From Arthrobacter sp. StoSoilB5 (GTDB taxonomy: Bacteria; Actinomycetota; Actinomycetes; Actinomycetales; Micrococcaceae): DNA of 64,000 bases. Under the pieces are notes generated by a model. That model did no database searches, was not told where the DNA came from, and was given only the letters and a program-made list of their open reading frames with translations. Within the stretch, counting starts at the first letter, position 1; the number at the start of each line of letters is the position of its first letter. Shown piece by piece: positions 49,553 to 63,477 of this stretch. The stretch lies in the NCBI RefSeq assembly GCF_019977235.1, contig NZ_AP024646.1:4092001-4156000 (forward strand), in the 5' to 3' direction. The position numbers and the translations under genes are program-made.

Positions 49553-49590
49553 TAGACTGCTGAAAAATGAAGGATGGAAGGACTCTCCCG

Positions 49591-50646
49591 ATGAACCGCA
49601 AGGCCACAGCCCTGGACGTCGCCAAAAGGGCGGGGGTGTCCAGGAGTGCGGTCTCGCTGGTGCTCAATGGCCGCGGCGACGGCAATGTGGCCAAAGAGAG
49701 CCAGGACCGGATCCGCCTTGCCGCACAGGAACTCAACTACTCCCCCAACGCGATCGCGCTCAGCCTGCGGAACCAACGCTCCCGCGTGATCGGCATCGTT
49801 TCCGACGAAGTTGTGGTCAGCCCCTTCGACGGCAATATCATCGGCGGCGCGGACGATGTCGCCCGCAGCCGGGGCTTCGTCACCGTGGTCATGGATACCG
49901 AGCGCGACGCCGCCCGGGATGAGAGTGCAATTGAAACCCTCCTGGACCGGCAGGTGGACGGGCTCATGTACGTGACCGTGGGTTTGAAGCCGCTCGATGT
50001 GCCCCACGGCATGCTGCGCGTCCCATCAGTCCTGGCCAATTGCTACGACAACAGCCCCGAGCCTCAGCTCCATCACGTCATCCCGGACGAAGTCACCGGC
50101 GGCAGGGAAGCCACCGAGCACCTGCTGCAGTTGGGCCATCGGGACATCGCCTTGCTTGCTGGCGCTGAGGAGTCCCCGGCCGCTCCCCTGCGAGTTGAGG
50201 GCTACCGGGATGCGTATGCCGCAGCCGGCCTGTCGGTTCGCGCGGACAGGATCACCATGGCGGGTTGGGACATCGACGCCGGTTTCCACGGCGCCATGAA
50301 ACTGCTCGACGGCGTGTCCCCGGCCGAGCGGCCCACGGCCATCATGTGCGCGAATGACCGTCTGGCAATCGGCGTTGCCCTGGCCGCAGCCCGTCTAGGG
50401 CTCAGCATCCCGGCGGATCTTTCGGTGATGGGTTACGACGACGAAGAACGGATCGCCGACACCATGGTCCCCGCCCTCACCACCATGGCCCTGCCGCTGC
50501 GTGAGATCGGCCGCGCGGCCATGACGACGCTCCTTGACAAGATCGAGGGCGCTACCGCCGAAGACACGGCGGAAACCACCATGGAAACGATGGTCCCCTG
50601 CCAGCTGGTTATCCGGGAATCAACCGGCCCTGCGCCCACGCGCTGA
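49591..50646 (+). CDS. LacI-family transcriptional regulator of the fructan/sucrose locus
   Basis: 351 residues. HTH at the N-terminus: ATALDVAKRAGVSRSAVSLVLNG, with hinge helix region SPNAIALSLRNQ. The periplasmic-binding-protein-like sensor domain covers about 65-345 and ends with the usual ALTTMALPLREIGRAAM segment. Start set at 49591, which has GGAAGGA 8 bases upstream; an ATG at 49567 would add eight residues. Three matching operators, one before this gene and two before the transporter operon at 55.5 kb, suggest that it represses both. The effector may be sucrose, fructose or an oligofructan. Confidence 0.9.
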   Translation: MNRKATALDVAKRAGVSRSAVSLVLNGRGDGNVAKESQDRIRLAAQELNYSPNAIALSLRNQRSRVIGIVSDEVVVSPFDGNIIGGADDVARSRGFVTVVMDTERDAARDESAIETLLDRQVDGLMYVTVGLKPLDVPHGMLRVPSVLANCYDNSPEPQLHHVIPDEVTGGREATEHLLQLGHRDIALLAGAEESPAAPLRVEGYRDAYAAAGLSVRADRITMAGWDIDAGFHGAMKLLDGVSPAERPTAIMCANDRLAIGVALAAARLGLSIPADLSVMGYDDEERIADTMVPALTTMALPLREIGRAAMTTLLDKIEGATAEDTAETTMETMVPCQLVIRESTGPAPTR

Positions 50647-50660
50647 GTAGTTCGTCGTTG

Positions 50661-50703
50661 ACCCGCTATTCCGTTGTCGGGCAACAACGGAATAGCGGGT
50701 TTG
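50661..50703 (+). terminator. Terminator after the LacI-family gene
   Basis: Perfect 17-bp arms (ACCCGCTATTCCGTTGT and its complement) around a 6-base loop, followed by TTTG. Lies between the convergent regulator and GH32 genes and could work for both. Confidence 0.8.
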
Positions 50704-50813
50704 CCACGTCAAATAGGGCCCACACCACCCGGGTTCCCTGGCTGAGCTTGCGAAGTTAGGGAGGGGGTGGGGACGCAGAGCAGGCCCCACAACGCACGAC
50801 GTCGGCCTGCCGC

Positions 50814-52226
50814 CTACTCGGGGAGAGTCAACTCCCACACGTCGGCGGTTGCGCCGGCGGGCAGGGTGAGCTGCCACTCTTCCCCAGCCGCCGGGTAGGC
50901 GCGAAGCGTCGTCGCGACCGAACCCGTGCGGTACACCTCCACAAGGGAAGCATCGATGAAGATCCGAAGCTCCTCCCCCGCGGCCAGGGAACCCGAGTAG
51001 ACCACTTGCCTGTTGTCCCCGGAGCCGGTCTCTGGATGCGAAACGAGCGCCAACTCCACAACGCCGGAAGGCACATCACCACCCGTCACCAGCACTTCGG
51101 CAAACGCGGGAACCACCACCGAGCCCGCAGCACCCCCAAGAACAGAAGCACCCCTGTACGCCAATACCTCGGGCGCAGGAGAAACGGCCAGCGCCCCGTC
51201 AACCACGGACAGAACGCGAGGATGTGTCAGCACACCCGACCACCCGGCGTCGTCGATTTCCTCCTGGGTGCGGCCGCGGCGGCCGTCCCGTCCGGGACCT
51301 TCGTTGGCCCACCCCCACAACAACGCCGTAGGCGAAGAACCAGAGGAACCATAAGAGAGCTGGACAACCTGCGGTGCATAGAAGTCGCGCCCCAGATCGG
51401 ACTTCCCACCGGAGGACGGCACAAACACAGGCAGCCCCGTCGCGGGGTCCGAGGCAAGGGAACCGATCAGGTGCCCAACCCCGTTGGCGTGCTCGTGGTC
51501 ATCGCCAGCCAGCCAGAGCGAGAACATCATCACCCACGCGGAGCCGCCCGACGCGTCAGGCACCTGCACCAACTGCGGGCACTCCCAAATCTCGGCAGGC
51601 GTGTGAACGGCAGCCACGGGATCAGCGGAGGTTAGCCAAATCCCCTCGTAGTGCCAGTCATTCATGTCCTCCACTGTGTACAGCAGCAGAGCGGCGCGCC
51701 CATCAGACAGGCCCGCTCCTTGGAGGGCGTATCGAGCCCCGTTGAAGCGGAAGATGAAGGGATCGCGCACGGCCGTGACCAGAGGATCGGAGGGCATTGA
51801 CGCAGCAACGTGCCCGGTCTGCTCCCACGTCACCAGGTCCGAGGAACCGCGGGCAATGACTACCTGCGAGTGCCCTCCGTGATCGCGGACGCCCGAGTAG
51901 ACCGCGGTCGGGACGCCACCATCGGAGGTCACCACGCCCGTCCAGCAGCCTGCGGAATCCGGACCTCCGGGCTGCGGCTTCAAAGCTACGGGGTGTTCTT
52001 CCCACTGGATCAGGTCGGGGGAACTCACGTGGCCCCACTGGATCTGCGAGTGTCGGGCAGATTCCGGGTTGTACTGGAAGAAGACGTGGTATCGGCCGTT
52101 GATGTAGCTGACGCCGTTGGGATCGTTGATCCAGCCTTGGGCGGGACGCGGGTGGAAGCGCGGGAACGCCGGATCCGGATGGCTGGCAGCCGAAACAAGG
52201 GAACTAAAAAGTGCAAGGTCCGTCAC
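50814..52226 (-). CDS. Glycoside hydrolase family 32 (sucrose/fructan hydrolase)
   Basis: 470 residues from a GTG with an AAGGG site 5 bases upstream; a longer upstream reading of the frame has no family likeness and overlaps the permease gene. GH32 enzymes hydrolyse beta-fructofuranosides. The catalytic triad is visible: nucleophile Asp in GWINDPNG (about 33), transition-state Asp in VRDPF (about 142) and acid/base Glu in WECPQL (about 195). A C-terminal beta-sandwich (about 335-470) has RIFIDASLVEVY. No signal peptide, so it acts in the cytoplasm after uptake by the ABC transporter encoded upstream. Last gene of the operon. Confidence 0.93.
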   Translation of the reverse strand: MTDLALFSSLVSAASHPDPAFPRFHPRPAQGWINDPNGVSYINGRYHVFFQYNPESARHSQIQWGHVSSPDLIQWEEHPVALKPQPGGPDSAGCWTGVVTSDGGVPTAVYSGVRDHGGHSQVVIARGSSDLVTWEQTGHVAASMPSDPLVTAVRDPFIFRFNGARYALQGAGLSDGRAALLLYTVEDMNDWHYEGIWLTSADPVAAVHTPAEIWECPQLVQVPDASGGSAWVMMFSLWLAGDDHEHANGVGHLIGSLASDPATGLPVFVPSSGGKSDLGRDFYAPQVVQLSYGSSGSSPTALLWGWANEGPGRDGRRGRTQEEIDDAGWSGVLTHPRVLSVVDGALAVSPAPEVLAYRGASVLGGAAGSVVVPAFAEVLVTGGDVPSGVVELALVSHPETGSGDNRQVVYSGSLAAGEELRIFIDASLVEVYRTGSVATTLRAYPAAGEEWQLTLPAGATADVWELTLPE

Positions 52227-52252
52227 TGGAACCCTTTCAATAATGAGTGGAG

Positions 52253-53125
52253 CTACTTGCCCGTTCCGGCGGTGAGTCCGTCCTGCAGTGCGCGCTGGCC
52301 GAACATGAACACCACCAGCGCGGGAATCATGGAGAGTACGACGCCGGCGAGCACCACGGAGATGCTTCCTGTGCCGAGGTTGCCTTGGAGGGAGACCAGT
52401 CCCAATGGCAGTGTGAAGTTCTGCTCGGAGATGGTCATGATGAGTGGCCTGAAGAACTCGTTCCAGTGGAAGTTGAACGCCAGGATGCCCACGATCGCCA
52501 GGCCCGGCATGGCCAGCGGCGCGTAGACGGAGCGGAAGGTCCGCCACGGTGAGGCGCCATCAATAGCGGCGGCCTCAGCGAGCTCACCCGGCAATCCCAT
52601 GAAGTATTGGCGCATCAGGAAGGTGCCGAACGCCGTCGGGATGGCCGGAATGATCAACGCGAGCAGCGTGTCCGAGAGCCCAACACCTCGGATCAGCATA
52701 AACACCGGCACGATCGTCACCTGGGCGGGCACCATCATGGTGGCCAGCACGATGGAGAACAGGGCGCCCCGTCCCCTAAAACGAAGGTGCGCGAACGCGT
52801 AACCAGCCAGTGCCGCGGTCACCATCTGTCCGACGGCGATCAGTCCGGTCACAAGGGCACTGTTCAGTACCAGTCCCACGATGTTGAGCTGCTTGAACAC
52901 CTGCTGGTAGGACGCGAGATCGGGGTTCAGCGGCAGGAAGGCAGGCGGCAGTTTGAAGGATTCCGACGGCGGCCGCAGCGAGGTGGATAACGTCCAGAGG
53001 ACGGGGCCCAGGACAAAGACGGATGCGATCAGCAAGATGGCGACGCGCCCGGCAACTGACCAGTCGCGTTTTTTACGCGTAACTACAGGCGCCGTGGTTT
53101 CAACACGATCTGAAATGAGGGTCAT
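52253..53125 (-). CDS. Carbohydrate ABC transporter permease (MalG type)
   Basis: 290 residues; start at the ATG before TLISDRVETTAP, 8 bases after the upstream permease. Six membrane helices. The EAA loop is EAAAIDGASPWRTFRSVYAPLAMPGLAIV (about 190-218). Partners are the MalF-type permease and binding protein encoded upstream. No ATPase gene lies in the operon, so a shared MsiK/UgpC-type ATPase elsewhere probably energises it, as is common in actinobacteria. Confidence 0.92.
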   Translation of the reverse strand: MTLISDRVETTAPVVTRKKRDWSVAGRVAILLIASVFVLGPVLWTLSTSLRPPSESFKLPPAFLPLNPDLASYQQVFKQLNIVGLVLNSALVTGLIAVGQMVTAALAGYAFAHLRFRGRGALFSIVLATMMVPAQVTIVPVFMLIRGVGLSDTLLALIIPAIPTAFGTFLMRQYFMGLPGELAEAAAIDGASPWRTFRSVYAPLAMPGLAIVGILAFNFHWNEFFRPLIMTISEQNFTLPLGLVSLQGNLGTGSISVVLAGVVLSMIPALVVFMFGQRALQDGLTAGTGK

Positions 53126-53133
53126 GGCGGGCC

Positions 53134-54099
53134 TTACTGGTAGAAGACGAATCGTTTGCTGAGCCGGAACTGCGCGGCGGTGATGGCCATGATGATGAGC
53201 GTCAGGATCACGCCGATCGCCGAGGCCTGGCCGAATTCGAGGCGTTGGAACGCGGATTCGAAGATCACCATGACGGCGGTGCGCGTTGAGTCGCCGGGCC
53301 CGCCGCGTGTGAGCACATAGGGCTGATCGAACACTTGCAGGGCGTTGATGATGGCCATCACCGAGGCCACCAGGGTGGTGGGGCTCAGCAGCGGCAGGGT
53401 GACGTAGAAGTGCTTGCGCCACCCGGTGGCACCGTCGATCGATGCGGCCTCATAGGTTTCAACCGGGATCGAGGCAAGCCCGCCAACAAACAGCAGGAAC
53501 GAGAAGCCGAAGTTCTGCCACACGTACACGAGAATTACGACGGCGGCCGATCCCCCTGGCGTCGTCAGCCACGGTACTGCGGGCACGCCGACCAGGGACA
53601 ACAGCCAGTTCACCACGCCAAACTGCTCGTTGAAGAGGTACCGCATGAAGATGGAGACCGATGCGGCGGAAAGAATCAGCGGGAAGAAGAAGGCCGAGCG
53701 GAAGAACACCCGCAGCCAGGCCGGGAGCTTCTCCTGCACCATGATGGCCAAGCCCAGGGCGAGTCCCAACTGGAGGGCGACGGCCACGATGACGAACACG
53801 ATGGTGTTGAGGAACGAGACGCGCACCGTCGGGTCCTGGACTACCTCGGCGAAATTATCGAAGCCCACGAACGTCGGCGCGGAGATGATGTCCCAGCGGA
53901 AGAAGGCGAGCGCCACCGAAGCGACGATCGGCAGGAGGGTGAAGATCCCCATGCCCACGATGGTCGGGGCAAGGAAGGCCCATGGCAGCCAGCGTTGTTG
54001 GACGCGGCCACGCTTGGAGGGTTGGCTGTGCTTGTGGGTGGCCTGACGGCTGCCCGGCTGCTTCCCTGTCCCGGTGGGGGTACTGGTTGCGGTGCTCAT
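53134..54099 (-). CDS. Carbohydrate ABC transporter permease (MalF/UgpA type)
   Basis: 321 residues with a basic 35-residue cytoplasmic N-terminus and six helices. The EAA loop reads YEAASIDGATGWRKHFYVTLPLLSPTT (about 225-251). The start ATG overlaps the binding-protein stop as ATGA, so the two are translationally coupled. Confidence 0.92.
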   Translation of the reverse strand: MSTATSTPTGTGKQPGSRQATHKHSQPSKRGRVQQRWLPWAFLAPTIVGMGIFTLLPIVASVALAFFRWDIISAPTFVGFDNFAEVVQDPTVRVSFLNTIVFVIVAVALQLGLALGLAIMVQEKLPAWLRVFFRSAFFFPLILSAASVSIFMRYLFNEQFGVVNWLLSLVGVPAVPWLTTPGGSAAVVILVYVWQNFGFSFLLFVGGLASIPVETYEAASIDGATGWRKHFYVTLPLLSPTTLVASVMAIINALQVFDQPYVLTRGGPGDSTRTAVMVIFESAFQRLEFGQASAIGVILTLIIMAITAAQFRLSKRFVFYQ

Positions 54100-55514
54100 G
54101 GCTGCCTCCTCAGGGCCAGTTCAAGATCGCGCTGCATTGATTCGAGGGCCTGTTTGAGCTGGCGCTCGTCCCCGCTGACAGCCAGGGATACGTTCTTCAT
54201 GAGCGCCGTCTCGACGGCGGCCTGCTGGGGTGGTGCCGGAATGGGACCTGTGGTGGGGAACCGGTCAAGCGTGTCGTAGAAGACCTTCCAGTTCCGCGGG
54301 CCGGTGCCTGCGTAGAGCTGTTCGTTGACCATGGAACGGCGGGCGGGAGTGGTGTTCGGTGTGGGGAACACGATCCTCATGGCCTCCAGGCTGGAGCTGA
54401 ACTTTACCCATTCCCAGGCTGCGTCCTTGTCCTTGGCGGTCTTCATGATGGCGTAGCCTGCCGTGCCGAACTGGTGCCGCTGACCTCGCCATTTCGGGAA
54501 GAACTGGACGTCGAATCCATCTTCCGTCATTCCCGCTTCGTGGAGGCCTTGCACCCAATAGCCGCCCGCCGGCGTCGTACCTATCCTGTTGGAGGCGAAG
54601 AGACCAATCAGTGCACTGCCGCCGCCTTCCTCGGGCCGGACACCCAGCCCGTCTTTCACCAGGCCGCGGAGGTAGTCGAACGATTCGAAGACGCGGGGAT
54701 CGTCCGCGTTGGGTTCCAGCCATTGGTAACCGCCGGAGCGGAGGCTGCGCGAGGGATCGTTGCCATAGAAGCCATCCCACAGCCATTCGCCGCCGGTGGA
54801 CTTGGTTTCTTTGAGGAAGCTCGTCTCGTTGGCATACAGCCATGGCACTACTCCACCGAAGAGTCGGTTGGTCCAGTAATAGGGCGTGAAGTCCTGTGGC
54901 TTGGCCTTTTTCATCGCAGCGAGCGTGCTGCGGAAGTCCAGGTGCGTCCAGTCGTCGGCAGGGCGTTCAAGGCCGGCCTGCTGGAATGCTGCGGTGTTGT
55001 AGTACATGTTGGCGGCGTTCCAGTCGATAGGGAGCTGGAACAGGCTGCCCTTGTACATGAAGGCTTCCACCAGGCTGGGGTGGACGTCCTCGAAGTACTC
55101 CTTCATGTGCTCGGCGTCGCGGCGCAGGTACTCGTCCAGCGGATGGGCCAGCTTCTCGGCGAAGAGCTGGGCGCCTTCCGTTGCCACGTACACAACGTCC
55201 GGCGGCGTGCCTGCTGCCACCATGGTGAGGATCTTGGTGAAGAAGTCCTTCCAGTCCACGGCCTGGATGGCTTGGACCTTGACCTTGATCTCGGGGTGGA
55301 CCTTCGCGAAGGCGTCGATGACCTTTTGACGCGCTGCGGCGTCTGCGGCGGTGCCCATGATGGCGATGCTGAGGCTATTGTCTCCCCGGCCTGGAATATC
55401 CGTCCCAGTCAATCGCGGCCACGACGCCGCTGTTGCTCCGACTATCCCAGCACCGAGGGCTGTGAGGGCGGTTCTGCGTGTGAATTGTCGCAAAGCCCCA
55501 TTGGTTCCCGGCAT
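54096..55514 (-). CDS. Carbohydrate ABC transporter substrate-binding protein, Tat signal
   Basis: 472 residues. Start at the ATG with GGAAGGA 7 bases upstream; a GTG at 55535 lies inside an operator. The N-terminus RQFTRRTALTALGAGIVGATA is a twin-arginine-like signal without a lipobox, so the folded protein may be exported by Tat and released or anchored. The mature part is a family 1 solute-binding fold: LSIAIMGTAADAAARQKVIDAF, KVHPEIKVKVQAI, PPDVVYVATEGAQLF, and GYWVQGLHEAGM. With a cytoplasmic GH32 in the operon the ligand is probably a small fructan or sucrose. Confidence 0.9.
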   Translation of the reverse strand: MPGTNGALRQFTRRTALTALGAGIVGATAASWPRLTGTDIPGRGDNSLSIAIMGTAADAAARQKVIDAFAKVHPEIKVKVQAIQAVDWKDFFTKILTMVAAGTPPDVVYVATEGAQLFAEKLAHPLDEYLRRDAEHMKEYFEDVHPSLVEAFMYKGSLFQLPIDWNAANMYYNTAAFQQAGLERPADDWTHLDFRSTLAAMKKAKPQDFTPYYWTNRLFGGVVPWLYANETSFLKETKSTGGEWLWDGFYGNDPSRSLRSGGYQWLEPNADDPRVFESFDYLRGLVKDGLGVRPEEGGGSALIGLFASNRIGTTPAGGYWVQGLHEAGMTEDGFDVQFFPKWRGQRHQFGTAGYAIMKTAKDKDAAWEWVKFSSSLEAMRIVFPTPNTTPARRSMVNEQLYAGTGPRNWKVFYDTLDRFPTTGPIPAPPQQAAVETALMKNVSLAVSGDERQLKQALESMQRDLELALRRQP

Positions 55515-55527
55515 GTAGATTTCCTTC

Positions 55528-55575
55528 CCTAACACGTGTGAGGAAGCCTATTCCGGTCACCTAACACGTGTCAAC
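55528..55575 (-). promoter_or_regulatory. Promoter with twin LacI operators (O1, O2) for the sugar operon
   Basis: O1 CCTAACACGTGTGAGG (55528-55543) and O2 CCTAACACGTGTCAAC (55560-55575) are centred exactly 32 bp apart. On the minus strand TTGACA lies inside O2 (55569-55574) and TAGGCT at 55545-55550 with an 18-bp spacer. O1 would cover the transcription start and touch the ribosome-binding site. A repressor on both sites would block the promoter fully. Confidence 0.75.
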
Positions 55576-55664
55576 CGTCACAGGAGTGTTGCGGCGGCCT
55601 CACGACAGTACTCTGCGGGGGAGCCGCCAATCGCGTCATGATTCTTCGCCAAGGCATTATCCAG

Positions 55665-55695
55665 TTGAGTTAGGTTAGGTTTACCTTGTTACATT
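55665..55695 (+). promoter_or_regulatory. Promoter with DtxR/IdeR-type iron box, leaderless
   Basis: TTGAGT (55665-55670) and TACATT (55690-55695) are spaced 19 bp. Between them is TTAGGTTAGGTTTACCTTG (55670-55688), which agrees with the DtxR/IdeR consensus TTAGGTTAGGCTAACCTAA in 15 of 19 positions. The GTG start of the next gene is 6 bases after the -10, so translation would start at the mRNA 5' end. Confidence 0.7.
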
Positions 55696-55700
55696 GACCC

Positions 55701-58388
55701 GTGACTACCCAACCGGATGTGGCCCGAATCTCGTTCGCCACCAACCTGGCGTCTTTCGGCGACCGCACAGCCATCAGCACCGGGGATTGCACCATCAGCT
55801 ACCGCGACCTTGCCGCGCGAGTGGAGGACATGGCACGCAGACTCGGCCCTGCGCGGCGCCTGATCGCCCTTGAAGCCGACAACACCCTGCCGTCCCTGAC
55901 TGTGTATCTCGCCGCCCTGGCGTCAGGCCATCCGTTGCTTATCCTGCCCGCGGGCGGCGGAAAAGCAGCCGAAACACTCATCGCGGCCTACGATCCAGAC
56001 ATCATTGCCCGGACCTCCAACAGTGAACCCATTGTGGAAGTGCGCCGACACGAGACAACACACCAGTTGCACCCGGATCTGGCGCTTCTGGTGAGCACGT
56101 CAGGCTCCACGGGATCACCGAAACTCGTTCGCCTTTCCGGGGCTTCCATCCAGGCGAACGCGGCAGCCATCGCACAGTACTTGCACCTTCGCCCCAGCGA
56201 TACTGCCGCCACAACACTCCCCCTCTCCTACTGCTATGGGATGAGCGTGGTGAACAGCCATCTTCTGGTAGGCGCATCTCTGGCGCTGACGGACCTCTCC
56301 GTAGTGGACCCCTGTTTTTGGGACTTGGTCCGTTCCCAGAGGGTGACCTCCTTCGCTGCCGTGCCTTACACCTTCGAGCTTCTGGACCGTGCGGGATTCG
56401 AGCACATAGACGTTCCGAGCCTGCGCTACATCACGCAGGCCGGAGGTCGCCTTACTCCGGAGCGCGTCCGGTCCTATGCAGAGTTGGGCCGGGAGCGCGG
56501 TTGGGACCTCTTTGTCATGTACGGGCAGACCGAAGCCACAGCCCGCATGGCTTACTTGCCGCCGGACCTGGCGGCGGAGCATCCACAGGCCATTGGAGTC
56601 GCGATTCCCGGCGGAGAATTCCGGCTCGAACCGGTCCCGGGGTTGGACGACCATGAGCTGGTCTACACAGGCCCGAATGTCATGCTGGGCTACGCAGAAA
56701 AGCCCGAAGACCTGGCCCTTGGGCGGGAAGTCACAGAGCTCCACACGGGGGACCTTGCCCGGCTTGGACCTGATGAGCTCTATGAGATCGTTGGCAGGCG
56801 CAGCCGATTCGTGAAAATCGTTGGTCTACGCGTTGACCTGGGACGGGTGGAACGGCTCCTTGCCGACCTTGGACTAACAGCCGCTGCCGCCGGCTCCGAC
56901 GACGCTGTGGTCGCCGCGGTGGAGGGCCACCACGATCTCGCCTTGGTAGCCAAGAGCCTGGCGCAGGATCTGGGCCTACCGCGCGCAGCCGTCCAGCTGC
57001 ATTCGGTGCCAGACATTCCACGGCTCGGCAATGGGAAGCCTGATTATCCGGCCATCCTCGCATTGTCTGCGCAGTCCGAGCGGGGCCACGGGGCACAGTC
57101 CTCGGAACCCGCGCCTGAGACAGAGACTGTTCGTGAGATCTTCGCAGACGTCCTGGAACGCCAGGACATCGCAGAGACGGACAGCTTCGTTTCCCTTGGC
57201 GGAGATTCGCTCTCCTATGTAGCTGCGTCAGTCCGGCTTGAGCGCGCGCTGGGCCGCATCCCTCAAGGGTGGCACCTGATGCCCATTTGCGAGCTCGTCC
57301 CGGCATCTGAGCCCACAGCTCATCGAACCCGGGAAGATGCGGGTGCCATGGGCAAGGGATTTCTCCGTACATGGCGGGGGAAGTTGTCGGCACGCATGGA
57401 AACGGGGATCGTGCTGCGTGCGGTGGCCATCATTTTCATCGTGGCCACGCACATCAAATTCTTCTCCTGGGAAGGCACCGCGCACGTGCTTATGGCGGTG
57501 GCTGGCTACAACTTTGCCCGTTTCCAGCTGACGGGATCCCGGCGGGAACGGCTCCGTCGGCAGTTGCGTGCCGTGGCGCGGATTGTCATACCCAGCGTCG
57601 TGGTCATCGGCGCCGCCTTCGCCGTCACTGACGACTACGGCTGGCACAACGTGCTCTTATTGAACTCGCTCGTGGGCCCGCAGGGGTGGACTGACATGTC
57701 CCGCTTCTGGTTTGTCGAAGTATTGGTTCACATCCTGGTCGGATTGGCTGTCCTGCTGGCCATACCCGCGGTAGACCGTGCACTGCGCAGATGGCCGTGG
57801 GCGTTTCCTCTCGCGTTGGCCGGTGTCGACCTCCTGCAGCGCTTCGACGTCATCGAGTTGCCGTACCCTGGCCAAGGGCCTGTCCTGTGGCTGTTCGCCT
57901 TCGGATGGGCTGCTGCTGTATCCAGAAAGCGGTGGCAACGCGCTGCCATGACCGCCTTCGCCCTCCTGACGATTCCAGGGTCCTTCAGCAACGAATACCG
58001 CAGCGCCACTATCCTGGCCGGCTTCCTCATCCTGCTCTGGATCCCTACCCTGCCCGTGCCGCGTGGCCTGCACCGCATCACGGCACTTTTGGCCAGCTCA
58101 TCCTTGTATATCTACGTCACGCACTGGCTCGTGTATCCGCTCTTTGAACAGGCCAACCAGGGACTGGCCCTTGCGGCATCATTGCTCGTGGGCGTGGCCT
58201 ACTGGGCCACTGCGACGCGGGCCATGGGCAGCGTGGAGCGGTGGCTTCGTCACCGACAAAAGCGGCGCCACGTTAATTCCTCCGGCTCACAGCCGGACGG
58301 GGGTTCAGTGCTGGGTGGGGGTTCAGTGCTGGATAGGTTTTCAGTGCTGGATACGAGGATGGCGCATCGATCGCGTTCTCGCGGATGA
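55701..58388 (+). CDS. Adenylation domain - carrier domain - membrane acyltransferase-3 fusion, iron-box controlled
   Basis: 895 residues. Residues 1-455 form an AMP-forming adenylation domain: A3 VSTSGSTGSPKLVRLS (131-146), A5 MYGQTEATARM (273-283), A7 LHTGDLARLG (347-356), A8 GRRSRFVKIVGLRVDLG (365-381) and A10 RLGNGKPDYP with Lys447. Residues 475-535 are an acyl/peptidyl carrier with LGGDSLSYVAAS, phosphopantetheine Ser503. Residues about 565-865 are about ten membrane helices of the acyltransferase-3 type, with the RAVAIIFIVATHIKFF motif (Arg573, His584). A short repeat-coded tail follows. The layout implies that one protein activates an acid, holds it as thioester and passes it to an acceptor at the membrane. 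Both substrate and acceptor are unknown. GTG start without ribosome site, fitting a leaderless mRNA. Confidence 0.85.
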   Translation: MTTQPDVARISFATNLASFGDRTAISTGDCTISYRDLAARVEDMARRLGPARRLIALEADNTLPSLTVYLAALASGHPLLILPAGGGKAAETLIAAYDPDIIARTSNSEPIVEVRRHETTHQLHPDLALLVSTSGSTGSPKLVRLSGASIQANAAAIAQYLHLRPSDTAATTLPLSYCYGMSVVNSHLLVGASLALTDLSVVDPCFWDLVRSQRVTSFAAVPYTFELLDRAGFEHIDVPSLRYITQAGGRLTPERVRSYAELGRERGWDLFVMYGQTEATARMAYLPPDLAAEHPQAIGVAIPGGEFRLEPVPGLDDHELVYTGPNVMLGYAEKPEDLALGREVTELHTGDLARLGPDELYEIVGRRSRFVKIVGLRVDLGRVERLLADLGLTAAAAGSDDAVVAAVEGHHDLALVAKSLAQDLGLPRAAVQLHSVPDIPRLGNGKPDYPAILALSAQSERGHGAQSSEPAPETETVREIFADVLERQDIAETDSFVSLGGDSLSYVAASVRLERALGRIPQGWHLMPICELVPASEPTAHRTREDAGAMGKGFLRTWRGKLSARMETGIVLRAVAIIFIVATHIKFFSWEGTAHVLMAVAGYNFARFQLTGSRRERLRRQLRAVARIVIPSVVVIGAAFAVTDDYGWHNVLLLNSLVGPQGWTDMSRFWFVEVLVHILVGLAVLLAIPAVDRALRRWPWAFPLALAGVDLLQRFDVIELPYPGQGPVLWLFAFGWAAAVSRKRWQRAAMTAFALLTIPGSFSNEYRSATILAGFLILLWIPTLPVPRGLHRITALLASSSLYIYVTHWLVYPLFEQANQGLALAASLLVGVAYWATATRAMGSVERWLRHRQKRRHVNSSGSQPDGGSVLGGGSVLDRFSVLDTRMAHRSRSRG
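58299..58352 (+). repeat. Three 18-bp tandem repeats in the 3' end of the fusion gene
   Basis: Units at 58299-58316, 58317-58334 and 58335-58352 share TTCAGTGCTGG and code for GSVLGG, GSVLDR and FSVLDT-like hexapeptides (read G-GSVLGGGSVLDRFSVLD). They add a variable hydrophilic tail after the last membrane helix. Confidence 0.75.
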
Positions 58389-58574: not shown

Positions 58575-58687
58575 ACGTTAAGAGTAGGCCGATTTACCCT
58601 TGACCATAAGGCGCCTTATTGATATATACGCCACGCCAGAGGCATCTTCACATGAGCCTTCCAGCGAACTGTGGCAGTCTAGATTCA

Positions 58688-59599
58688 ATGAGTTCCCAGC
58701 AGTCCCGCTCCCTGGCAATGTCCCCTGACCGGTCAGCACAAGGTCGCAAGCCCGGTTTCGGTACAGGACTGCTTTTCTGCCTCGGTACCATCGCCAGCAT
58801 GCTGGGCTTGATTGCCACGTACTACTTCTTCGTGCGGACCACCATGGGTCAGTTCATCGACGAGTCAGCATTGGTCGAGGCCACCGAACTGAGCGGATCT
58901 GCGGGCAGGGCCTCCACGAAATTCCTGGATATGCTGCCCATCCTGTCATTGGCAATCGCCACCTTGGTGGTGCTCTTCGTGACGGTGGCGCGTCGCCGTT
59001 GGACCGCCGCAGGAATTGCCATCACCGCGTGCATCGCCGCCAATCTGGCTACCCAGGTACTCAAGTTCTTTATCCCCGACAGGCCAGACCGCGGTGTGCA
59101 GACACTTGAACTCAACTCACTGCCGTCCGGCCACACAACGTTGGCAGCTTCTGCTGCTGCGGCGGTCTTCCTCATGGTCTCGCCCCGCTGGCGGCCCCTG
59201 GCAGGCTTCCTTGGCAGCACGTTCGCCGTGGCCACTGGAGTTTCCACGCTCATCAATCAATGGCACCGGCCTTCCGACGTCGTAGCAGCCTTCCTTGTGG
59301 TGGGCGCTGTCATGCTGCCCGCCGGCTGGCTGATCCTCCGCACCGGAAGCAGCTGGAATGTTTGGAAGGGCTACGGCGAGCACTGGGCTGCATCACGGCT
59401 CTGGGTATGGCTCACCGCCATTGCCTTACTCCTGGCAGCTATCGTGGCAGGCTACTCACTGCTCCAAGTAATGCCGGGACTCAGCGCCGACAGCACCGTG
59501 GACTACTTCTGGTCCGGGACCGCGTTCATAGTCCTCGCCGGATACCTGTCCGCGCTTGGTGGGACGTGGCTGTTCGGCTTGGCGGCCAGGAAGCGCTAA
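58688..59599 (+). CDS. PAP2 superfamily phosphatase (membrane)
   Basis: 303 residues from the ATG before SSQQSRSLAM; in-frame starts at 58652 and 58619 would lengthen it. Five to six membrane helices. The PAP2 phosphatase motifs are present: LKFFIPDRP (C1), LPSGHTT (C2) and LINQWHRPSD (C3, His and Asp). It would act on lipid phosphates or diphosphates (phosphatidate, undecaprenyl diphosphate) on the outer face. Compared with the second PAP2 of this window it carries a longer C-terminal part with two extra helices. Confidence 0.85.
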   Translation: MSSQQSRSLAMSPDRSAQGRKPGFGTGLLFCLGTIASMLGLIATYYFFVRTTMGQFIDESALVEATELSGSAGRASTKFLDMLPILSLAIATLVVLFVTVARRRWTAAGIAITACIAANLATQVLKFFIPDRPDRGVQTLELNSLPSGHTTLAASAAAAVFLMVSPRWRPLAGFLGSTFAVATGVSTLINQWHRPSDVVAAFLVVGAVMLPAGWLILRTGSSWNVWKGYGEHWAASRLWVWLTAIALLLAAIVAGYSLLQVMPGLSADSTVDYFWSGTAFIVLAGYLSALGGTWLFGLAARKR

Positions 59600-60216: not shown

Positions 60217-60969
60217 ATGACGACGATTGAGGCCTTGGGGCCGACCTTGCTGGGGGTCGTTCTCCTCGTGACCCTGACCGCGGCAGCGCTGACCGCCTAT
60301 AAAGTGCCTTACAGGTGGGCGCCAGCGTTGGCGATCCTGCGGGGGACGGTTCAGTTAGCAGCTATCAGTGTCATCCTCAGCGGTGTCATCTCAAGTCCCG
60401 GCTTCGTGGCGCTGGCACTGCTGATCATGTTTGCTGTGGCTGCAACGACTGCTGCCCGGCGAATCGGGTGGAGTTGGAAAACCCTTGGCCTCGTTGGCGG
60501 ATCCATGGGGCTGGGCGTCGCCGTGACGCTCGGCGTCATCTTCGCCAGCGGCGCGGTTGCGCTGACTCCACGTTATGCATTGGCGATTGGTGGCATCATC
60601 ATCGGCAACGCCATGACCACGGCGACCCTGGCCGGTCGCCGTTTCTCGGAGGCCGTCCGTGATCACTGGGAGGAAGTGGAAGGGTGGTTGGCCCTGGGCG
60701 CGACACCTCGCCGGTCAACGTTGGAATTGGCCCGTCGCGCCGTCTATTCAGCATTGATTCCATCCATTGACCAAACGAAGACTACGGGGCTAGTTACTCT
60801 TCCGGGTGCTTTTGTCGGGGCGATCTTCGGCGGTGTTTCACCCCATGAAGCCGGGAGGTTCCAGATTGTGGTCCTGGCCGGGATCATGGCCGCCGGTGCT
60901 TTCACCGCCGTTTCAGTCATCGCTTCCCGTGCCGCTGTTCAGGTGCGTCCAGCGCCGTTGGACCCGTGA
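60217..60969 (+). CDS. FetB/YbbM-like (UPF0014) ABC permease
   Basis: 250 residues, about seven membrane helices. UPF0014 signatures are clear: YALAIGGIIIGNAMTTATLAGRRF (about 118-141), ALGATPRRS, and ALIPSIDQTKTTGLVTLPGAFVGAIFGG (about 185-212). In E. coli FetB pairs with the ATPase FetA and is linked to iron export and peroxide resistance. No ATPase gene is beside it. TAGGCT 8 bases before the ATG and no ribosome site suggest a leaderless mRNA. The iron-box gene 2 kb upstream makes an iron-related role worth testing. Confidence 0.88.
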   Translation: MTTIEALGPTLLGVVLLVTLTAAALTAYKVPYRWAPALAILRGTVQLAAISVILSGVISSPGFVALALLIMFAVAATTAARRIGWSWKTLGLVGGSMGLGVAVTLGVIFASGAVALTPRYALAIGGIIIGNAMTTATLAGRRFSEAVRDHWEEVEGWLALGATPRRSTLELARRAVYSALIPSIDQTKTTGLVTLPGAFVGAIFGGVSPHEAGRFQIVVLAGIMAAGAFTAVSVIASRAAVQVRPAPLDP

Positions 60970-62027: not shown

Positions 62028-62694
62028 TCGCGTCGCCGATCTGGTACCCCACCCCGTGCACGGTACGGACGATCGATCTGGAGATCTTCCGACGCAGGTG
62101 GTGGACGTAGGTGTCGATCACTCCGGGCAGTTCACCTTGGCTGAAGGTGGCATTGATCAGCTCTTCCCGTGTGAACACGTGGTCCGGTTGCGCGGCCATC
62201 GTAGTCAGCAATTCACTCTCCTTGGCCGTCAATGAGGTTCGGAATCCGTGAATGGAACGGACGGACCTGGAAGAAGGGTCCAGTTCCCAGTCTCCAATAC
62301 TGAAGGTCTTGACCTCTTGCTGGTAGCTGCGGGTCAACGCCCTTAGCCGGGCTCCCAGTTCCAAGAGGTCGAAGGGCTTGGTCATGTAGTCATTCGCGCC
62401 GGCGTCGAGTCCCCTGACCTTCTCCTCCGTTGCGCCGAGGGCGGTGAGTATGAGGATAGGGGTGGCGATACCCCTGGACCTGAGCGCGGCAATCAGCGCG
62501 ACGCCGTCCATGCCGGGCAGGCGCCGGTCCACCACCATCACATCCCAGATCCGGGAGAGTCCCCGATGCAGGCCTTCATGGCCGTCGACGGCGACGTGAA
62601 CCTGGTAGTCCGGCTCAAGGAGCTCGGCGATGAGCGGCCCGAGGACGACGTCGTCTTCGACCAGGAGCAGGGATGGCTTGGTTGCAGTGGTCAC
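62020..62694 (-). CDS. OmpR-family response regulator
   Basis: 224 residues from the GTG that overlaps the PAP2 stop (GTGA). Receiver domain with VEDD (acidic pocket), phospho-acceptor Asp in VMVVDRRLPGMDG (about 52), Thr in LILTALG and Lys in DYMTKPFDLLELG. C-terminal winged helix with LTAKESELLTTMAAQPDHVFTREELI and VIDTYVHHLRRKI. A CTTAAT-N5-CTTAAT direct repeat upstream of the operon is a plausible binding site, meaning autoregulation. Confidence 0.92.
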   Translation of the reverse strand: MTTATKPSLLLVEDDVVLGPLIAELLEPDYQVHVAVDGHEGLHRGLSRIWDVMVVDRRLPGMDGVALIAALRSRGIATPILILTALGATEEKVRGLDAGANDYMTKPFDLLELGARLRALTRSYQQEVKTFSIGDWELDPSSRSVRSIHGFRTSLTAKESELLTTMAAQPDHVFTREELINATFSQGELPGVIDTYVHHLRRKISRSIVRTVHGVGYQIGDAND

Positions 62695-63413
62695 GAATCC
62701 ATTGTTGCGCGCCGGTCTCTCGCGGACTGGAACCGGGCCACGATCGATGGTGCTTGACGGTTCCAGAGACCAGCCATCAACACGACGACGCCAATGGTCG
62801 CCGGAAACGACGCCATGACATCCAGTGGATAGTGCGCGCCGATGTAGACACGGGACCAGCCGACGATCACTGCGAGGATCATTCCTGTCCAGAGAACGGG
62901 CTTCTCCACTCGGGTACCCCGGGCCACGAAATACGCTGCCAAGGCCAGGGCGACGGCCAGACAGGTGTGCCCGCTGGGAAAGCTGTTGGATACCGGCTCC
63001 GGCGCCAGCGGGTCCAACAAGAGTGCCGGGTCGGGCCGGATCCTGCCGATGACCACCTTGAACAGTTGGCAGCTTAACCATCCCGAACCAACTGTGAGGG
63101 CAAACAGCACAGCTTTCTGGGGGGAACGTCGAATCAGCAGGAGATACAGACTTGTAGCGAGCACCACCATCGCTCCCACCACAGGCTCGAACAGCAGGTT
63201 AAAAGCCAGGGCTAAACCGGTCAGGACAGGGTTATGGTTGCGGCTGAAGTTCTGATCCACAGTCAGCTCAGCCGACGTAAACCCTGGCACGACCTGGACC
63301 GCCAGCCCGACTGCGATGACGACTGCCACCAACATAAGCCCAACGGCAAGCCAGTGTTTGGGTGCTGGCAGCCGCTGTAGGGGTACTGGGGGAAGTGTAG
63401 GTTGCGGCAACAT
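62691..63413 (-). CDS. PAP2 superfamily phosphatase co-transcribed with a two-component system
   Basis: 240 residues from the ATG at 63413 (AAGGG 4 bases upstream). A TTG at 63461 is in frame but lies within the putative regulator site, so I prefer the shorter form. Six helices. Full PAP2 motifs: KVVIGRIRP, FPSGHTC and SRVYIGAHYPLD. Probable lipid phosphate or undecaprenyl-diphosphate phosphatase on the outer membrane face. Its stop overlaps the response-regulator start, so enzyme, regulator and kinase are made together; this points to envelope remodelling in response to a signal. Confidence 0.87.
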   Translation of the reverse strand: MLPQPTLPPVPLQRLPAPKHWLAVGLMLVAVVIAVGLAVQVVPGFTSAELTVDQNFSRNHNPVLTGLALAFNLLFEPVVGAMVVLATSLYLLLIRRSPQKAVLFALTVGSGWLSCQLFKVVIGRIRPDPALLLDPLAPEPVSNSFPSGHTCLAVALALAAYFVARGTRVEKPVLWTGMILAVIVGWSRVYIGAHYPLDVMASFPATIGVVVLMAGLWNRQAPSIVARFQSARDRRATMDS

Positions 63414-63460
63414 GGGACCCTTCGGCAGGACGTATCGTTCTTCCAATTCTCGCGAGGGCA

Positions 63461-63477
63461 ATTAAGAACTCATTAAG
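63461..63477 (-). promoter_or_regulatory. Direct-repeat response-regulator site, CTTAAT-N5-CTTAAT
   Basis: On the minus strand CTTAATGAGTTCTTAAT; hexamers are 11 bp apart, one helical turn, as for OmpR-family dimers. The spacing and sequence resemble the PmrA box of enterobacteria. It lies in the divergent gap between the PAP2 operon and the last gene of the window. Confidence 0.6.

Follow-up and report, generated by a model that had tools for sequence, protein, structure and literature searches.

A 64,000-bp stretch of the Arthrobacter sp. StoSoilB5 genome (contig NZ_AP024646.1, positions 4,092,001 to 4,156,000; hereafter the window) contains on its forward strand one gene whose predicted product joins an adenylation (A) domain, a carrier (T) domain and an acyltransferase-3 (AT3) membrane domain in a single chain, and which is preceded by a putative iron box of the DtxR/IdeR type. 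The genome is a single contig of 5.3 Mb. The features of this A-T-AT3 gene, with the evidence for each in brackets, are as follows.

55670..55688, + strand, DtxR/IdeR-type iron box, 15/19 (consensus match, conservation across loci)
55701..58388, + strand, A-T-AT3 gene, 895 aa, GTG start (open reading frame, profile matches, homologues)
55701..57080, + strand, adenylation domain, residues 1-460 (profile, motifs, fold)
57123..57305, + strand, carrier domain, residues 475-535, with the codon of the phosphopantetheine-bearing Ser503 at 57207-57209 (profile, conservation)
57393..58268, + strand, acyltransferase-3/TmAT membrane domain, residues 565-856, with key codons at 57417-57419 (Arg573), 57450-57452 (His584) and 58113-58115 (Tyr805) (profile, conserved residues, fold)
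57408..57572, + strand, stretch with three replaced acyl-CoA-site positions, I570 (57408-57410), L597 (57489-57491) and A624 (57570-57572) (comparison with ordinary AT3 domains)

The frame runs through 895 codons uninterrupted by stops, and its product matches three Pfam profiles above their curated cut-offs: AMP-binding at residues 116-331 (128.9 bits), PP-binding at residues 475-518 (30.9 bits) and Acyl_transf_3 at residues 571-825 (49.9 bits). Because all three domains recur in order among homologues (88 among the 120 listed, which span 60-96% identity and 590-944 residues) and in distant relatives at 37-54% identity, from other families and orders and, judged by their kinship labels, other classes of the phylum, A-T-AT3 is a true single gene and does not result from a frame error. 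Among 396 genomes drawn evenly across the phylum, 18 match A-T-AT3 at E<=1e-60, three of them (G225, G240, G374) covering the A-domain side alone. Residue conservation was read from a 47-row alignment of the window protein with 46 of 85 relatives, hand-picked for spread, and from 13 sequences of deep relatives. Ser503, Arg573 and His584 are unchanged in all 47 aligned sequences, and the attachment Ser503 also in 13/13 deep relatives. The AMP-binding profile, the fold and the motifs A3 (133-141), A5 (274-283), A8 (365-379) and A10 (Lys446) identify an ANL-type adenylation domain, with the catalytic Lys446 in 47/47 sequences. The AT3 part has the expected motif (Arg-x10-His in transmembrane helix (TMH) 1, Gly in TMH6, SxxxY in TMH9), with R573, H584, G735, S801 and Y805 each in 47/47 sequences, and its TmAT fold was recovered with VIA-align, though missed by Foldseek alone. 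Domains, fold and invariant residues therefore support a predicted enzyme that activates an acid, carries it and transfers it at the membrane within one chain. The initial annotation had described just such an enzyme, in one intact frame with intact adenylation motifs, the three domains, Ser503 and the Arg573/His584 motif, and had raised the question of whether the AT3 part might be a separate gene; its description of the frame, domains and residues is borne out, and the domain order among relatives settles that question in favour of a single gene.

Within the 3' end of the gene lies an 18-bp tandem repeat of 3.2 copies (58295-58352), which encodes a repeated GGSVL-like tail in a region variable among relatives. 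Two copies of the gene occur per genome in P. nicotinovorans SSBW5, A. liuii and G013 (loci L032/L037 and L047/L049), and genome G009 holds further A-T-AT3 pieces, one containing a stop.

The iron box TTAGGTTAGGTTTACCTTG was scored against TTAGGTTAGSCTAACCTAA, which we take to be the 19-bp DtxR/IdeR consensus, and matches it at 15 of 19 positions. This reproduces a site noted in the initial annotation, which spans -31 to -13 when counted from the GTG; its location between -35 and -10 elements was not confirmed, as no promoter-like pair of this kind came up when 55536-55760 was scanned with the sigma-70 consensus. Within the window there is no second site of at least 14/19, the runner-up scoring 13/19. 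Conservation was assessed in 80 loci, out of 182 stretches encoding an A-T-AT3 relative. A site of at least 14/19 lies within -250 to +60 of the start in 62 of the 80, with the best site at -28 to -33 in 43 of these, and the position near -31 is kept across actinobacterial genera. Control tiles from the same loci hold such a site in 9 of 4325 cases, eight of the nine preceding fbpA. In the 60 bp upstream of the start, a site of at least 14/19 is present in 58/80 loci vs 3/4000 shuffles, and one of at least 12/19 in 73/80 loci vs 86/4000 shuffles. The seven loci without a 12/19 site in this interval are L050, L051, L055, L059, L061, L071 and L072; in all of these except L050 and L071 the gene lies directly 3' of fbp genes and a box precedes fbpA, with start/stop codon overlap between the gene and the preceding fbp gene in four of the five. 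Indeed, a box of at least 14/19 precedes fbpA in 12/12 co-directional loci, among which L026, L027, L065 and L066 have an additional own box at the A-T-AT3 gene and L063, L064 and L069 a weak own box only. Moreover, 18 of 20 loci from the own and related genomes have a box of at least 14/19, and in the neighbourhoods of 14 deep relatives (three genomes being shared with the set of 20) a box lies near the start in six and before fbpA in two others.

The StoSoilB5 genome itself encodes two DtxR-family regulators. A genome-wide regulon was sought with the box core at two mismatches, but this gave 12 sites vs 18 for the reversed control, and therefore just the two sites within one mismatch were used: the window box and C1:725218, which lies just 5' of the genome's own fbpA, 92% identical to the gene-adjacent fbpA of L026. 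A search with the full 19-mer at three mismatches recovered the fbpA site alone, the window site being missed because it has four mismatches. Since the box is conserved in position across genera, control of the gene by a DtxR/IdeR repressor is very probable, and the gene is probably switched on by iron shortage. The initial interpretation is thus supported in part: strongly in its iron control, and also in its single-chain enzyme, but not in the promoter placement of the box. The lipid, glycan or siderophore that it proposed as acceptor are all candidates. At L050, a 16/19 iron box lies 1902 bp upstream of the start, and the last 60 bp hold none of at least 12/19. The available text on the Streptomyces coelicolor DmdR1 regulon names no A-T-AT3-type gene (PMC12161575).

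The strongest lead, missed by the initial annotation together with the loss of acyl-CoA-site positions described below, is the link to ferric importers of the FbpABC type. FbpA and FbpB are both encoded within 8 kb in 30 of the 80 loci. Eleven of these, from the Arthrobacter group, have fbpA-fbpB-fbpC-(A-T-AT3) on one strand, 18 have the gene divergent from fbp (Streptomyces, Actinomadura, Kineococcus, Catellatospora and Micromonospora), and one (L072) has a mixed arrangement. Among the deep relatives the pair is nearby in 5/14 loci, upstream in three and otherwise arranged in two (L143, L144). According to Pfam, the neighbours at L026 comprise a solute-binding protein, an ATPase that carries a TOBE domain, and a permease in two parts. 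For importer typing, one representative FbpA of each of three sequence types was compared with PDB sequences; the best matches are SfuA/YfuA for L026, an Fe(3+) solute-binding protein (7li0) and the FutA-type 2pt1 for L064, and 7w3w for L070, so that all three types are ferric-binding proteins by best match. On a 94-row FastTree, with long branches flagged, 10 changes of the adjacency label are required, and starred branches force six or more of these. In the phylum draw, FbpA is present in 14/18 genomes with A-T-AT3 vs 117/378 others, a count which assumes that both searches drew identical genomes. In StoSoilB5 itself the A-T-AT3 gene has no fbp neighbour, and within the genus FbpA presence is uninformative, as 24/24 genomes have it. 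Because the adjacency is repeated and the iron box shared, a functional partnership of the A-T-AT3 gene with an FbpABC-type importer appears highly likely.

Five loci of Micromonospora type (L073, L084, L091, L094, L101) also share two other families close to the gene, a luciferase-like monooxygenase and an NADPH-dependent FMN reductase; the pair lies further off in L055, whose members gave the Pfam assignment.

The acyl donor is suggested by three positions of the acyl-CoA site, the TMH1 Asp/Gln, the TMH2 Phe and the first Arg of TMH3. None of them is kept in any of the 47 aligned sequences or in any of the 13 deep relatives, and by this comparison the domain does not look like the CoA-using type. 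Two or three are kept in 31 of 32 ordinary AT3 domains, picked by best score (one row being a gap at these positions), and the same is true of 14 among 15 low-scoring AT3 domains added to them, two of the 15 scoring below the window protein's own AT3. Since the three positions are lost while Arg573 and His584 are kept, the fused carrier is likely to be the acyl donor to the AT3 domain, replacing CoA.

With respect to what is activated, a match to GrsA by eye gives the pocket set C178, Y179, S182, A220, T245, A247, M273, A281 and R282. Because Cys occupies the place of GrsA Asp235, an alpha-amino acid substrate is less likely; against this, McyG is described as showing that the Asp is not strictly required (PMC11253843). 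Tyr179 stands, again by eye, at the place of Tyr236 in the aryl-acid enzyme DhbE, with the aryl-acid A5 motif unmatched, and VinN has an Arg at the position aligned with Arg282. The prediction of adenylation specificity envisaged in the initial annotation did not yield a substrate: the NCBIfam matches are remote, the 25 listed all lying far under cut-off, and none is indicated by the A domains of known structure that come nearest (VinN, LgrA, oxalate-CoA ligase, McbA and MenE). The substrate is probably one conserved, non-amino acid.

Parts of this design have counterparts in known systems. In the DltA-DltC-DltB(-DltD) system, an ANL enzyme activates an acid, a carrier is loaded, and a membrane acyltransferase passes the acyl group to an extracytoplasmic acceptor. 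A-T-AT3 would likewise activate, carry and transfer outside; unlike Dlt, it joins the steps in a single chain whose membrane part is of the AT3/TmAT kind, its gene has an iron box and is linked to FbpABC, and the MBOAT-type membrane part of DltB is absent, as no such profile was found in the window protein at E<=0.001 (Pfam) and Acyl_transf_3 was found instead. Epsilon-poly-L-lysine synthetase also has adenylation, carrier and membrane parts in a single chain. In contrast to that enzyme, A-T-AT3 has a different membrane part and, given the Cys in its pocket, is less likely to use an alpha-amino acid; it also has no Condensation profile at the same threshold, which sets it apart from a nonribosomal peptide synthetase (NRPS) module as well. 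Unlike the AT3/TmAT enzymes OatA, OafB and HGSNAT, it has fused adenylation and carrier domains, and unlike ordinary members of the superfamily it has lost the three acyl-CoA-site positions. It resembles the A-T-R carboxylic acid reductases in A-T loading followed by one C-terminal acyl-releasing domain (PMC11253843), which here is a membrane acyltransferase. The FbpABC/SfuABC/FutABC importers are its likely partners, their genes having the same iron box. An AT3 review includes SGNH and racemase fusions, and the terms "adenyl" and "phosphopantetheine" were not found in the review text available (PMC9558356). In the open-licence literature, judged by the titles and abstract openings of the entries listed, we found neither a description of the A-T-AT3 architecture nor a dedicated acyl-transfer enzyme beside the well-known FbpABC importer.

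These observations suggest a model to which we give about even weight, namely that A-T-AT3 is a carrier-fed transmembrane acyltransferase of the ferric-uptake regulon, in a single chain, that would make an iron ligand for FbpABC or modify one. At low iron, the DtxR/IdeR repressor would leave the box and the gene would be transcribed, as the conserved box implies. The A domain would adenylate one particular small acid and load it onto the fused carrier at Ser503; this acid is probably not of the alpha-amino type. The pantetheine arm of the carrier, in place of acyl-CoA, would then enter the AT3 pore from the cytosol, as the lost CoA-site positions suggest, and the acyl group would be handed to an acceptor outside the membrane. 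The product, either fixed at the surface or set free, would be an iron ligand and would feed Fe3+ to an importer of the FbpABC/SfuABC/FutABC type. A role in Fe3+ supply is inferred because the adjacency is repeated and the control shared, and for the product being itself an Fe3+ ligand the balance falls just short of even. Still more tentative is the idea of a "one-gene siderophore", in which one protein activates a common acid and carries it through a pore in place of CoA, the ligand being built outside without an exporter and serving an importer that is commonly held to accept ferric ions in bare form.

Several observations weigh against this model. FbpA and FbpB are not both within 8 kb in 50/80 loci, 6/14 deep relatives have no box of at least 14/19, and 8 of the 24 same-genus genomes lack the A-T-AT3 gene while all eight have FbpA, so that the importer is independent of the gene. 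The Fisher p of 9e-5 for the co-occurrence with FbpA in the phylum draw ignores shared descent, and the pocket assignment relies on the by-eye alignment to GrsA. Some AT3 positions counted as kept fail in deep relatives, as Arg627 is replaced in 5/13 and Tyr805 in 2/13. In addition, Arg617 or Arg619 could substitute for the lost TMH3 Arg, TMH1-Asp is described as dispensable in OacB (PMC12423673), and the donor of AT3 proteins is given as acyl-CoA rather than acyl carrier protein (PMC9558356). One may argue that the AT3 domain still takes cytosolic acyl-CoA while a second acyl group, unrelated to the first, comes from the A-T part, in line with the donor named for the superfamily (PMC9558356, PMC12423673, PMC11357348); however, none of the three CoA-site positions survives in the aligned sequences or the deep relatives, while even weakly scoring AT3 domains nearly always keep at least two, and we regard this arrangement as quite improbable. 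That the box is a chance match before an ordinary acyl-activating fusion unrelated to iron is barely credible: the excess of reversed-control sites at two mismatches speaks for it, but it appears already contradicted by the conservation of the box and its position across genera and by the boxes before fbpA in every co-directional locus.

The remaining alternatives concern the product. The enzyme may modify an envelope lipid or glycan, altering charge or permeability as D-alanylation does, and merely be co-regulated with iron uptake. AT3 proteins act mostly on surface glycans (PMC9558356), the majority of loci have no nearby fbp pair, and Dlt combines the same three steps, but linkage to three importer types in several arrangements is hard to explain by co-regulation alone, and we consider envelope modification unlikely, if still a serious contender. 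Rather less probable is that a siderophore is made separately and the enzyme acylates it outside the membrane, tailoring the product of an NRPS or an NRPS-independent siderophore (NIS) synthetase. The StoSoilB5 genome does hold one IucA/IucC NIS synthetase, and a schizokinen-like cluster is reported in Arthrobacter Rue61a (PMC3534580). Yet among 38 genomes searched, 22 of the 30 with A-T-AT3 have no IucA/IucC match, and there is no association, as IucA/IucC occurs in 8/30 genomes with the gene vs 3/8 without. Eight other recurrent neighbour families were also scanned (argininosuccinate lyase, DNA glycosylase, prolyl oligopeptidase, flavin oxidoreductase, acetate kinase, luciferase-like monooxygenase, alpha-amylase and a coiled-coil protein), NRPS siderophore genes not being searched genome by genome.

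Elsewhere in the window, a fructan-use locus unrelated to iron lies directly upstream (49567-55535), mostly on the opposite strand, with a LacI-type regulator, a GH32 fructan hydrolase, two sugar permeases and a sugar-binding protein, the regulator and permeases being named from sequence. Downstream, two PAP2-family membrane proteins (58619-59599 and 62691-63461) flank a histidine kinase/response regulator pair, also named from sequence, and 1.8 kb from the A-T-AT3 gene lies a UPF0014 membrane protein (60217-60969), a family that includes the iron exporter permease FetB.

The free ferric ion is what FbpABC importers are said to take up (PMC3534580). In oxic soil such ions are scarce. An iron-box-bearing acyl-transfer enzyme tied to three importer types thus offers a testable answer to how soil actinobacteria feed FbpABC. 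The fused combination, with its probable link to an iron importer, did not appear in the literature searched. If the model is true, A-T-AT3 would be, as far as that literature shows, without precedent among AT3/TmAT enzymes in being fed by a carrier protein, it would add another kind of donor to a superfamily for which acyl-CoA is the one described, and its fused carrier would provide a soluble handle for studying the passage of acyl groups across the membrane.
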